NCBI GenBank assembly: GCA_012840725.1
Contig: DURQ01000092.1
Span: 1-64,000, forward strand
From: Bacillota bacterium
Lineage (GTDB): Bacteria; Bacillota; Limnochordia; Darwinibacteriales; Darwinibacteriaceae
Direction: 5' to 3'
DNA length: 64,000 nucleotides
Shown here: in pieces, positions 29,956-33,237 of the stretch
How the letters are laid out: each line of letters starts with the position of its first letter
Numbering within the stretch: the first letter of the stretch is position 1
Program-made: the position numbers and the translations under genes
The notes under the pieces: generated by a model
What the model was told of the DNA's origin: nothing
Database searches by the model: none
Seen by the model: only the letters and a program-made list of their open reading frames with translations

Positions 29956-30495
29956 GTGGACATTGTAGAACGCATCATCGTCAGCGAAGAAGCAATCCAA
30001 GAGCGTGTCCAAGAACTGGCTGCAGACATTTCCAGAGACTATGCCGGCAAGACCATCACTCTGCTCTGCGTGCTTAAGGGCGGGCTGATGTTCCTCTGCG
30101 ACCTGGCCAAACATATTACCCAGCCGGTGGAATACGATTTTATGTCTGTTTCCAGCTACGGAGATGCCACCGAAACCTCAGGTATTGTCCGCATCACGAA
30201 GGATCTGGAGGAAAGCCTTGAGGGCAAGCATGTGCTCATCGTGGAGGACATCATCGACACTGGCCTCACCCTCAACTACCTCGTGAAGATCCTTCAGAGC
30301 AGGAATCCTGCCTCTCTGCGCATCTGCACGCTGCTCACAAAGCCCGCGAACCGCCGGGTTGAGATTCCCATCGACTACGTGGGCTTCGAAGTGCCCAACG
30401 AGTTCTTGGTGGGCTACGGCCTCGACTACAAACAGCTCTACCGCAATGTTCCATACGTCTTCGTACCCAGCAAGGAGTTGCTGGAGCGGGCATAA
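29956..30495 (+). CDS. hpt: Hypoxanthine phosphoribosyltransferase
   Basis: Purine salvage enzyme converting hypoxanthine or guanine with PRPP to IMP or GMP. The PRPP motif VLIVEDIIDTGLTL near 93-106 and the N-terminal LLCVLKGGLMFLCDLAKHI are characteristic. C-terminal PNEFLVGYGLDYKQLYRNVPYV closes the family pattern. It has 179 residues with a GTG start and a purine-rich GGTGGTGGAA just upstream. It is one of few plus-strand genes, with its own promoter and a strong terminator. Its neighbour apt on the other side of recJ also serves purine salvage. Confidence 0.95.
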   Translation: MDIVERIIVSEEAIQERVQELAADISRDYAGKTITLLCVLKGGLMFLCDLAKHITQPVEYDFMSVSSYGDATETSGIVRITKDLEESLEGKHVLIVEDIIDTGLTLNYLVKILQSRNPASLRICTLLTKPANRRVEIPIDYVGFEVPNEFLVGYGLDYKQLYRNVPYVFVPSKELLERA

Positions 30496-30497
30496 AG

Positions 30498-30544
30498 AAA
30501 ACTGGCGCTTTGGAATAGCCTTCCGGCGCCAGTTTTGCTTTTTT
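30498..30544 (+). terminator. Strong terminator between hpt and the HD gene (probably bidirectional)
   Basis: AAAACTGGCGC and GCGCCAGTTTT form a perfect 11-bp stem with a 17-base loop, followed by GCTTTTTT. The minus strand also has T bases after the stem, so it likely stops both convergent transcripts. Confidence 0.92.
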
Positions 30545-30549
30545 GACGC

Positions 30550-31212
30550 TTAGAGAAGCTGCACCTCGTTGATCCTCAGCCTGAACTGGCAGCCCAGAAA
30601 AGAGGCTGCCCTGCGGCACATGAGCATGCGTTCAAGGAAGATTTCAAAGTAGTCCATAATCGGTGTATACTCGGTCTCGATGGTGATATTCAGGGTGATC
30701 AAGCCCTGCTCTGCATCAACGTCGAGAACCGACTTGTTCACCGCGAAGTTGACCCGGTCGTGAATGTCAAAGGTGGAGATCTCTCGGTTGCGCACTCTGG
30801 TGCGGTGCACATCAGACTTATCAGCCAGGATCAGGGCTGCGGCCACTGCGTTGACCGGCTCCCCCACCTCTTCCTCGTGATTGCCTACTGCGCTCAAGAT
30901 CAGAGCCACCTCAGCCGGAGGCATGCCCAGCTCCCTCAAGACGGGTTCCACAAGCAGGGCTCCCGCCGCACCGTGATGTACCCTCCCTACACAGTTGCCG
31001 AGGTCGTGTACATACCCAGCGATGGCCGCCAGTTCGGCCAGGCGCTCTTCCCGGCCGAGACTCAGCAGGATGCTGCGGGCTAGGTCAGAAACCAGGCTGA
31101 TGTGCCGTAAACCGTGCTCGGTAAAGCCCATGGCTGCCAGGTTATCATCGGCCTGCTGCACGTAAGCCCGGATGGTGGGATGCTGTTTGACATCAGCTAG
31201 CTTGACTGCCAT
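30550..31212 (-). CDS. HD-domain phosphohydrolase
   Basis: A 220-residue protein with a metal-dependent HD domain. H37 (EHGLRHI), H69-D70 (YVHDLGN), H79/H80 and a later aspartate (ALILADKSDVH) give the usual ligand set. The C-terminal third forms a separate beta-rich part (LDVDAEQGLITLNITIET). Members hydrolyse nucleotides or phosphoesters; the substrate is unknown. ATG at 31212 has GGGAGG seven bases upstream, and it overlaps the P-loop kinase gene by 20 bases. It is the last gene of a four-gene operon that also holds a PP2C phosphatase. Confidence 0.85.
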   Translation of the reverse strand: MAVKLADVKQHPTIRAYVQQADDNLAAMGFTEHGLRHISLVSDLARSILLSLGREERLAELAAIAGYVHDLGNCVGRVHHGAAGALLVEPVLRELGMPPAEVALILSAVGNHEEEVGEPVNAVAAALILADKSDVHRTRVRNREISTFDIHDRVNFAVNKSVLDVDAEQGLITLNITIETEYTPIMDYFEIFLERMLMCRRAASFLGCQFRLRINEVQLL

Positions 31213-31576
31213 CCTCCTGCCTCCCTATCCCGAGTTCTGCCAGACGGCGGTGGACGTACTGGACCAGCTGCTCCGGGGAAAAGCCGTCTGTGCGCACGAT
31301 GAGATCAGCCTGCTCACGGGCATCCTCCAACCAGTTGAGCTGGCGCCGGTAGCGCTCCACTCCCCAGAAGGCGCGCCTGCGCTTGCGGATGGTCTCGTAA
31401 CTGCATTCCAGGAACACCAGTACATCCGGATGCAGGTACTGCCACAACCGCCTGCTCACTGAGTGCTCCTGAGCGAAGGTGCGGACCCGGTAACCCAGGT
31501 TCCTGAGCCCGTTTCCCAGGGTAGTCTTGCCCGAGGCGCACACCCCCACTATGACGATCAGCGGATCCTGCTGCAT
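31193..31576 (-). CDS. Small P-loop kinase-like protein
   Basis: A 127-residue protein with a Walker A motif GVCASGKTTL at residues 11-20. A hydrophobic strand VLVFLEC follows and a basic stretch SYETIRKRRRAFWGVERYRRQ, reminiscent of the lid of small nucleoside or dephospho-CoA kinases. No exact family is recognised and the protein is shorter than most NMP kinases. The best start is ATG at 31576 with GAGGTG six bases upstream. It lies 10 bases after the phosphatase stop and overlaps the HD gene. The substrate is unknown; an activation or signalling role together with its neighbours is only inferred. Confidence 0.75.
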   Translation of the reverse strand: MQQDPLIVIVGVCASGKTTLGNGLRNLGYRVRTFAQEHSVSRRLWQYLHPDVLVFLECSYETIRKRRRAFWGVERYRRQLNWLEDAREQADLIVRTDGFSPEQLVQYVHRRLAELGIGRQEDGSQAS

Positions 31577-31586
31577 CCTCCTCACC

Positions 31587-32285
31587 TCACAAGGGGTAAG
31601 AAGCAGAGATGGTCCTTAACCCGAGCTTGTTCTCAACGGCTGTTACCTTCATGACGGCCACCACCATATCATCGCGCGGCTTTCCGTCGTCCAGCTCCAG
31701 GGCATAACGCAGAACAGACTCGGCCAGTTCCTGTGCGGAGATGTCCTGCAGCATGGCTTGGCAGGCTTTTTTCAGAGAGAACCTTTCCCTCCCGTGCCTT
31801 CCGGCATCGGTAACTCCATCTGTAAAGCCCATGAGCACTGTGCCTGCGGCCAGTTCAAGATGGGTCAGAGACGGTTTGAGAAGGCGCCGGATACCGATGG
31901 GTTCCACGGGTGCATCCAAACAGCGGGCTTCCCCATGGGATGCCACGAGCACGGGGCTGTTGGAGTTGCGGGAAACGACCAGACAGCCTTGGGCTGCATC
32001 GGCGGAGAGCAGCGTCGCGGTGGCGGATACCATGCCGTCCCGGAAGGCATAGAGCTGATCGTTGATCACGCGCATCACTGCTCCGTCCCTGGCTCCGTCT
32101 TCGATCAACCGTGCAGCCTGGTTGGCGATCATGTGGCTCATGCGCTTGGCGCCCCGTCCGTGGCCCTGGCCGTCAATGATCACGACGGATATACCGCCGC
32201 AGGGCCTTTCCACCACTTCCACCGAGTCTCCGCTGACACCCACGGCATATTTGCCCACTTTGGCGACATACACCTGAACTTCCAT
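31587..32285 (-). CDS. SpoIIE/RsbU-type PP2C serine phosphatase, single domain
   Basis: A 232-residue PP2C-like phosphatase of the SpoIIE family with no sensor domain, similar in size to RsbX. Metal-binding residues are visible: D38 and G39 in VIIDGQGHGRGA, D156 in MGFTDGVTDAG, and D205/D206 in RDDMVVAVM. Such enzymes dephosphorylate anti-anti-sigma factors or related STAS proteins. No STAS protein or anti-sigma kinase lies next to it, so its target must be elsewhere. It starts with ATG at 32285 behind a weak AGGTTGG, 9 bases after the secreted protein stop. It is the most informative member of the four-gene operon. Confidence 0.88.
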   Translation of the reverse strand: MEVQVYVAKVGKYAVGVSGDSVEVVERPCGGISVVIIDGQGHGRGAKRMSHMIANQAARLIEDGARDGAVMRVINDQLYAFRDGMVSATATLLSADAAQGCLVVSRNSNSPVLVASHGEARCLDAPVEPIGIRRLLKPSLTHLELAAGTVLMGFTDGVTDAGRHGRERFSLKKACQAMLQDISAQELAESVLRYALELDDGKPRDDMVVAVMKVTAVENKLGLRTISASYPL

Positions 32286-32294
32286 AGCACCAAC

Positions 32295-32831
32295 CTAGTT
32301 CCACTCAAAGCCGTTTACGGCTCGTATCCAGTATTCCCTCGTATCGCCCTGGAACTTCGCTGCTTCCAGGAAGTAGGTCATGTACACTACGTAACCGCCT
32401 CGCTGGAAGAACACTGACCGTAGCATGACGCGCTTGCCATCTGCTCCTGTCGCTTCATAGGCGTAGAAAAGGCACTTCAGATTGTTGGAAGTGGTGATCT
32501 CCTGATTACTGAGGACGCTAACGTCTTTGACCAGAGGTTTGTAGCGCGCCTCTAAGCTGCTGCGCACCGCCTCCACATCCGTGCCCGGTTGAGAGTGCAC
32601 CTCCATGACCACCCCATCCTTCAGGGAGATGAGCAGGCTGTTCATGCCGAAAATCGAGCGCTCGACGTAACTCTGGCCTGTGGAAGGGACGATGGCGCTG
32701 AAGGCGGGGGTATCCACTACGTACCACCAGTAACTTTGGTGATCGTGCAGGTAAAAGGCGCCAGCCTCAGCCACCTGCACTGCAAGGAAGACAGCGAAGA
32801 TGAATGCTCCAACAGCCACTGCTCTGCGCAC
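32295..32831 (-). CDS. Secreted or membrane-anchored protein, unknown function
   Basis: From GTG at 32831 (178 residues) the N-terminus has two arginines, a hydrophobic stretch (about 4-22) and a likely signal cleavage after VAEAGA. The mature part is an alpha/beta domain with strands such as MNSLLISLKDGVVMEVHS and ends with EYWIRAVNGFEWN. No family is recognised. The upstream GTG at 32840 touches the ribosome binding site AGGAAGG. It follows the yajC terminator directly and leads the operon with phosphatase, kinase and HD genes, so it may be a sensor or an exported factor linked to that signalling set. Confidence 0.65.
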   Translation of the reverse strand: MRRAVAVGAFIFAVFLAVQVAEAGAFYLHDHQSYWWYVVDTPAFSAIVPSTGQSYVERSIFGMNSLLISLKDGVVMEVHSQPGTDVEAVRSSLEARYKPLVKDVSVLSNQEITTSNNLKCLFYAYEATGADGKRVMLRSVFFQRGGYVVYMTYFLEAAKFQGDTREYWIRAVNGFEWN

Positions 32832-32859: not shown

Positions 32860-32885
32860 AAGAAAACCACCAAACATGGTGGTTT
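32860..32885 (-). terminator. Terminator of queA-tgt-yajC
   Basis: AAACCACC and GGTGGTTT form an 8-bp stem with a 6-base loop, followed by TTCT on the minus strand. It lies 30 bases past the yajC stop and about 30 bases ahead of the next gene. Confidence 0.8.
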
Positions 32886-32916: not shown

Positions 32917-33237
32917 CTATCCCTTCTTTTCTTCTCCCTTTTCCTTAAGTACATGGCTGATACCGCTGCGGGAGAGCTTGATCTCCACTTTGTCAGCCAC
33001 CTTCAGCATGACATAGTCCTCTTTCAGGCTGGTGAGCTCACCGTGAATCCCACCAATAGTGACCACCCTATCGCCCTTTTTCAGGGAATCAAGCATGGTC
33101 TTCCTTTCCTTCTGCTGCTTCTGCTGGGGACGCCAAAGCATGAAGTAGAACATAACCCCGAGCAAGATGATGGGCAGGAACAAGCTGACCACGCTTGCTT
33201 GTTGTCCAACAGGAACATCGGTCTGCAAGAACATCAT
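32917..33237 (-). CDS. yajC: Sec translocase accessory protein YajC
   Basis: Small single-pass protein of the SecDF-YajC complex that assists protein export. One transmembrane segment (about 17-35, VVSLFLPIILLGVMFYFML) is followed by the family motif RPQQKQQKERKTMLDSLKKGDRVVTIGGIHGEL. It has 106 residues. It follows tgt by about 28 bases, the usual order queA-tgt-yajC. The usual followers secD and secF are not present here or elsewhere in the window. Confidence 0.95.
   Translation of the reverse strand: MMFLQTDVPVGQQASVVSLFLPIILLGVMFYFMLWRPQQKQQKERKTMLDSLKKGDRVVTIGGIHGELTSLKEDYVMLKVADKVEIKLSRSGISHVLKEKGEEKKG

Follow-up and report, generated by a model that had tools for sequence, protein, structure and literature searches.

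A phosphatase and an unnamed P-loop protein form a near-obligate gene pair in an export-linked cluster of Bacillota

What holds together four small genes of the minus strand that are packed between yajC (32917-33231, minus strand), a conserved neighbour, and a convergent gene for an HPRT-like phosphoribosyltransferase (29956-30495, plus strand)? The genes lie within the 64,000-nucleotide stretch of DNA analysed here (the window) and are named, from yajC onward, Exp, PP2C, Kin and HD. Exp (32295-32831) begins with GTG behind the ribosome-binding site AGGAAGGTG; PP2C (31587-32285) encodes a predicted stand-alone Ser/Thr phosphatase with a SpoIIE domain, of the family represented by the solved structure 3PU9 (Sthe_0969); Kin (31193-31576) encodes, from an ATG start, a 127-residue P-loop protein resembling RapZ and shikimate kinase; and HD (30550-31212) encodes a predicted HD-domain phosphohydrolase with an intact metal motif. 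A reading of this DNA from sequence only had described a tightly packed set resembling one transcription unit, bounded by terminators and standing in the place of secDF, and had proposed that all four genes form an undescribed signalling or nucleotide-control unit. Much of the physical description holds. Gaps of 9 nt (Exp/PP2C) and 10 nt (PP2C/Kin) and an overlap of 20 nt (Kin/HD) bear out the compact arrangement; a two-way terminator hairpin fills the junction between HD and HPRT (30496-30549, stem about 30504-30541; folding z about -4, both strands), as seen from folding and synteny, and a terminator-like hairpin on the minus strand, AACCACC-N6-GGTGGTTTT (32863-32884), separates yajC from Exp. 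No known RNA element was found around the operon.

That the four open reading frames are genes rather than chance is clear from two observations: each protein has full-length homologues in other species at the equivalent locus, and the genes are under purifying selection within the genus, with pN/pS values of 0.11-0.25 comparable to those of their neighbours (0.09-0.28). No description of the gene set was found in the open-licence literature, in keeping with the earlier word "undescribed".

The idea of a single four-gene unit fares less well. Exp was found only in the order to which the window belongs, and the HD gene occurs class-wide between yajC and secD, also where PP2C and Kin are missing; a constant unit of four genes was rejected on these grounds. 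HD is thus older than the set and separable from it. Only PP2C and Kin travel together almost without exception. Of 61 relatives, 22 have the PP2C orthologue, and exactly these 22 have Kin. In a sample of 399 genomes drawn from the phylum, both were found in 46, Kin only in 1 (G289), PP2C only in none and neither in 352 (Fisher p = 9e-60, a nominal value that ignores shared ancestry); the members of the pair span 20 families. Kin lies directly downstream of PP2C in 33 of the 34 loci that were opened, and secD comes next, with or without HD, in 31 of them, HD itself being present in 20. The genes upstream of PP2C change: signal peptidase I, selB, aroB or aroC, a 5-formyltetrahydrofolate cyclo-ligase-like gene and others take this position (upstream names were read from sequence). 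The core of the cluster is therefore a near-obligate PP2C-Kin two-gene module, and the pair is separable from secDF, HD, Exp and STAS proteins alike.

Some neighbourhoods of the pair deserve separate mention. In family f54 (L149, L152, L155, L158) yajC and PP2C are separated by a signal-peptidase-I-like gene, which makes the surroundings export-related throughout. The sole Kin lacking an adjoining PP2C, in G289 (L167 6621-6965), keeps its P-loop and its QEHS motif (see below) intact. In many relatives the interval from secF (or Kin) to HPRT/recJ holds a phasin-like gene together with one for a UbiB/AarF-like atypical kinase of ~560 aa, both named from a reading of the sequence (L048 3543-5521, L050 11034-13074, L047 7238-7594, L152 10319-12345); the UbiB/AarF-like genes give weak Pkinase matches.

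The relation of the cluster to secDF was clarified by its sister genera. In the same family, the order is queA-tgt-yajC-Exp-PP2C-Kin-HD-secD-secF-HPRT(-)-recJ-apt-relA, with the four genes upstream of an intact secDF in, for example, G015, G006, G009 and G011. Because they precede secDF there, the four genes do not replace it, contrary to the original proposal, and the junction at 30496-30549 marks the position that secD and secF occupy in the sister genera. The sequence-only reading had also suggested looking for secDF elsewhere in the genome; a SecD_SecF profile gave zero matches in the window's assembly (84% complete), this locus included. The other five genomes of the genus (91-97% complete) contain no true SecD or SecF, and show remote matches to the profile only, most of them in ORFs of about 1000 aa, which is consistent with RND-type transporters. 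All told, secDF is missing in 6 of 6 genomes of the window's genus (g1, G000-G005), and the locus is the remnant of an export-linked cluster after a clean loss of secDF, its flanks closed up.

Such losses have occurred more than once. HD abuts the HPRT terminator directly in g1, g4 (G008) and g6 (G010), while in G025 (family f4) Kin abuts a phasin-like gene directly. In a tree of six flanking proteins, g1 falls beside g9 and g4 beside g5, with g6 apart at a weakly supported node (0.46); this placement implies four or more losses of secDF within the order, each sparing PP2C and Kin. The loss in G010 is judged from the closed-up locus, as that assembly is merely 75% complete. The opposite change is seen in g9, the sister of the window's genus, which has no PP2C or Kin and retains yajC-Exp-HD-secDF. 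In the class as a whole, repeated loss of secDF is apparent in g1, G008, G010 and G025, and also in g11, g23 and G049; these genomes give remote RND/MMPL-like matches or nothing.

The two genes that accompany the pair here can be described briefly. The HD protein matches the HD domain of Pfam at 26.9 bits (cut-off 22), and its metal-motif residues H37, H69, D70, H112 and D131 are invariant. It shares domain and metal motif with the HDIG type of the HD superfamily, from which it departs as a distinct branch with a C-terminal region of its own; no named subfamily reaches its cut-off. The window's genome and relatives also have a second paralogue of HD, with 49% identity, which adjoins a two-component system of response regulator and sensor kinase (L105 6975-9624, G000 contig C60). 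Exp has an N-terminal hydrophobic helix ahead of a predicted PsbP/Mog1/DcrB-like domain (model pLDDT 85.6, TMq about 0.6) and is probably exported, judging from this helix. Its kinship to PsbP, Mog1 and DcrB is one of model and not of sequence: no significant sequence match was found in the PDB, and Pfam matches were marginal only.

What kind of phosphatase is PP2C? The Pfam SpoIIE domain (PF07228) is matched at 92.2 bits against a cut-off of 25 (E = 5e-26), and the aspartates expected to bind metal are nearly invariant, D20 being present in 54 of 55 sequences and D38, D156, D205 and D206 in all 55. By these features the protein is assigned to the PP2C/PPM Ser/Thr phosphatase family. The closest solved relative of the family profile is 3PU9 (E 7.6e-76), from Sphaerobacter thermophilus, a full-length homologue that includes the C-terminal tail; SpoIIE follows at about 1e-21. 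The 3PU9 structure is a structural genomics entry that has served as a comparison structure (PMC5468089), and no paper on the function of Sthe_0969 was found in the open-licence literature. SpoIIE of Bacillus shares the SpoIIE/PPM domain and the metal residues with PP2C, which lacks the membrane or regulatory region of SpoIIE. The SpoIIE equivalog TIGR02865 scored 70.1 bits against a required 490.8, with the last 213 model positions alone matched, and identity with SpoIIE proper was rejected at this distance below cut-off.

The phosphatase had also been called a stand-alone RsbX-like enzyme. The architecture is indeed stand-alone, and like RsbX of Bacillus the protein is a PP2C in which a sensor domain is absent; no Rsb genes were seen beside it. 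The likeness goes no further: a search of the PDB with the PP2C profile (A3) returned no chain named RsbX up to E = 10, a result that is meaningful only if the searched set contains RsbX chains. With 3PU9 and SpoIIE as the best matches, an RsbX-like identity was rejected. The tail of PP2C (31590-31625, residues about 221-232) carries the strongly conserved motif IRR....YP[FLC], with a similar stretch in 3PU9, and Kin might dock there.

Kin is the more unusual of the two. Its Walker A motif, GxCxxGK[ST], has G14, C16, G19 and K20 (130-aa numbering) in 56 of 56 sequences, and a second motif, QEHS, is equally constant in E, H and S, with Q in 55 of 56. The predicted fold is closest to the RapZ N-terminal domain and shikimate kinase (TMq 0.6-0.7), with dephospho-CoA kinase also among the matches. 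Compared with these nearest folds, Kin is shorter and has the QEHS motif as its own; its model contains four core strands against five in related kinases. The missing strand seems, from the alignment, to be the third, Walker B, and QEHS would be located where the Walker B acid is otherwise expected. The RapZ-like_N domain of Pfam scores 17 bits against a cut-off of 25.4, and weak matches to it occur in 11 of 22 members; identity with RapZ was rejected, given this sub-cut-off match and the lack of a C-terminal domain in 127 aa. The nearest named family is Pfam AAA_18, below cut-off for the window's protein. Searches of Pfam, NCBIfam and PADLOC gave catch-all P-loop matches only, and the PDB gave weak P-loop matches by sequence, so the original description of a kinase-like protein of no known family stands. 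As to an antiphage role, the matches were partial only, to a Cas3-type HD and to the VakA P-loop. There is no recognisable acceptor-binding region in Kin and the Walker B strand is seemingly missing, and for these reasons sensing of nucleotides or phosphorylation of a small molecule could be its role instead.

The putative active sites of PP2C and Kin are both conserved, and such pairing would be expected of a phosphatase either with its opposing kinase or with a regulatory subunit. The reading preferred here, to which we give a probability of about 0.45, is that Kin and PP2C form one switch on a protein that is not obligatorily a STAS protein, within an export-linked cluster that has lost secDF. 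The P-loop of Kin would hold ATP, and the invariant QEHS would probably take over for a Walker B strand that seems to be missing. Kin would either phosphorylate Ser/Thr of a shared cytoplasmic target or switch the phosphatase on and off; PP2C would take the phosphate off the shared target. Of this scheme, we infer the target, the use of ATP, the lack of a strand and the way in which phosphate is passed. In at least some hosts the target would be something other than a STAS anti-anti-sigma factor, and nothing requires it to be SecDF. HD and Exp would belong to the same transcription unit without being essential parts of the switch, HD as a separate phosphohydrolase and Exp as a lineage-specific extracytoplasmic protein. 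An opposing kinase/phosphatase pair is judged the most likely form of the switch, if tentatively; second, and on the unlikely side, comes nucleotide-dependent control of PP2C by Kin. Two observations count against the switch: G289 has a Kin and no PP2C, and all 52 genomes tested contain a Hanks kinase, a possible kinase opposing PP2C.

The preferred reading has to be weighed against several others, one of them a partner-switching phosphatase. STAS proteins are the substrates of bacterial PP2Cs of the SpoIIE/RsbU type (PMC11418112), and PP2C, with its SpoIIE domain, might likewise be a SpoIIE/RsbU/RsbX-type enzyme acting on a distant STAS factor, here SpoIIAA, with Kin incidental or regulatory. 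The search for distant STAS targets that the sequence-only reading had recommended gave a divided answer. The window's assembly does contain one STAS protein (SpoIIAA), adjoining an anti-sigma-kinase-like gene, and most pair-carrying hosts have a STAS protein; but three genomes with the pair, G230 (100% complete), G334 and G028, give no match to STAS (PF01740) or STAS_2 (PF13466), so a STAS substrate is not obligatory. Moreover, the neighbours of the pair included no recognisable STAS or anti-sigma kinase gene, as had been noted at the outset, and most sampled relatives have an additional SpoIIE-domain protein of greater length, which in the window's genome is SpoIIE-like. Partner switching is for these reasons considered quite unlikely. 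A metabolic control unit, in which Kin is a small-molecule kinase for a nucleotide or sugar and is tuned by PP2C, HD or both, would suit the fold matches to shikimate and dephospho-CoA kinases and the frequent adjacency of the HD hydrolase gene. Kin is far shorter than metabolite kinases, with no obvious acceptor-binding insertion, and HD is absent in 14 of 34 clusters; such a unit is unlikely, if a shade less so than partner switching.

Direct control of Sec export, for example by phosphorylation of SecDF, YajC or SecA, is suggested by the location beside yajC and secDF across 20 families and by the signal peptidase I of some clusters. Yet the pair was retained after loss of secDF in at least four lineages, and g9 and most of the class have secDF and no pair. 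The positional link between the pair and secDF is strong but can break in either direction, which leaves a role in export possible but not required; direct control is improbable. The four genes might, at the extreme, be unrelated and merely share an inherited position in a slow-changing gene order, queA-tgt-yajC...secDF-recJ-apt-relA being a conserved order in itself. The free swapping of upstream genes around a PP2C and Kin that are almost never apart, and the joint loss of both in g9, make the lack of any functional link highly doubtful, the least likely of the explanations considered.

The PP2C superfamily is known; its fixed pairing with a P-loop protein of no named family seems to be new. 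Finding PP2C with this same unnamed partner in 46 of 46 genomes makes the pair a candidate for an undescribed phosphorylation switch, and Kin provides the 3PU9 phosphatase family with a partner and hence a route to function. The repeated loss of secDF beside a retained module amounts to a natural experiment on the link between switch and export. There is a bolder version, fairly unlikely, in which Kin would be the founding member of a new class of protein kinases in bacteria, reduced to a P-loop protein that uses QEHS and has no Walker B strand. Together with PP2C it would make up a widespread reversible Ser/Thr switch, present in at least 20 families, that works without Hanks kinases, HPr kinase or anti-sigma kinases.

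The hairpin between yajC and Exp merits a final remark. The form AACCACC-(4-7 nt)-GGTGGTTTT recurs between these genes in families f1, f3 and f4 (for example, L031 7401-7421 and L047 9453-9475), its loop varying while its stem hardly changes, and was found nowhere else within the 64-kb window or the other loci examined. It looks like a terminator, yet its stem is oddly fixed for one. In genus g9 it is preceded by a second hairpin, GCCCACC...GGTGGC.
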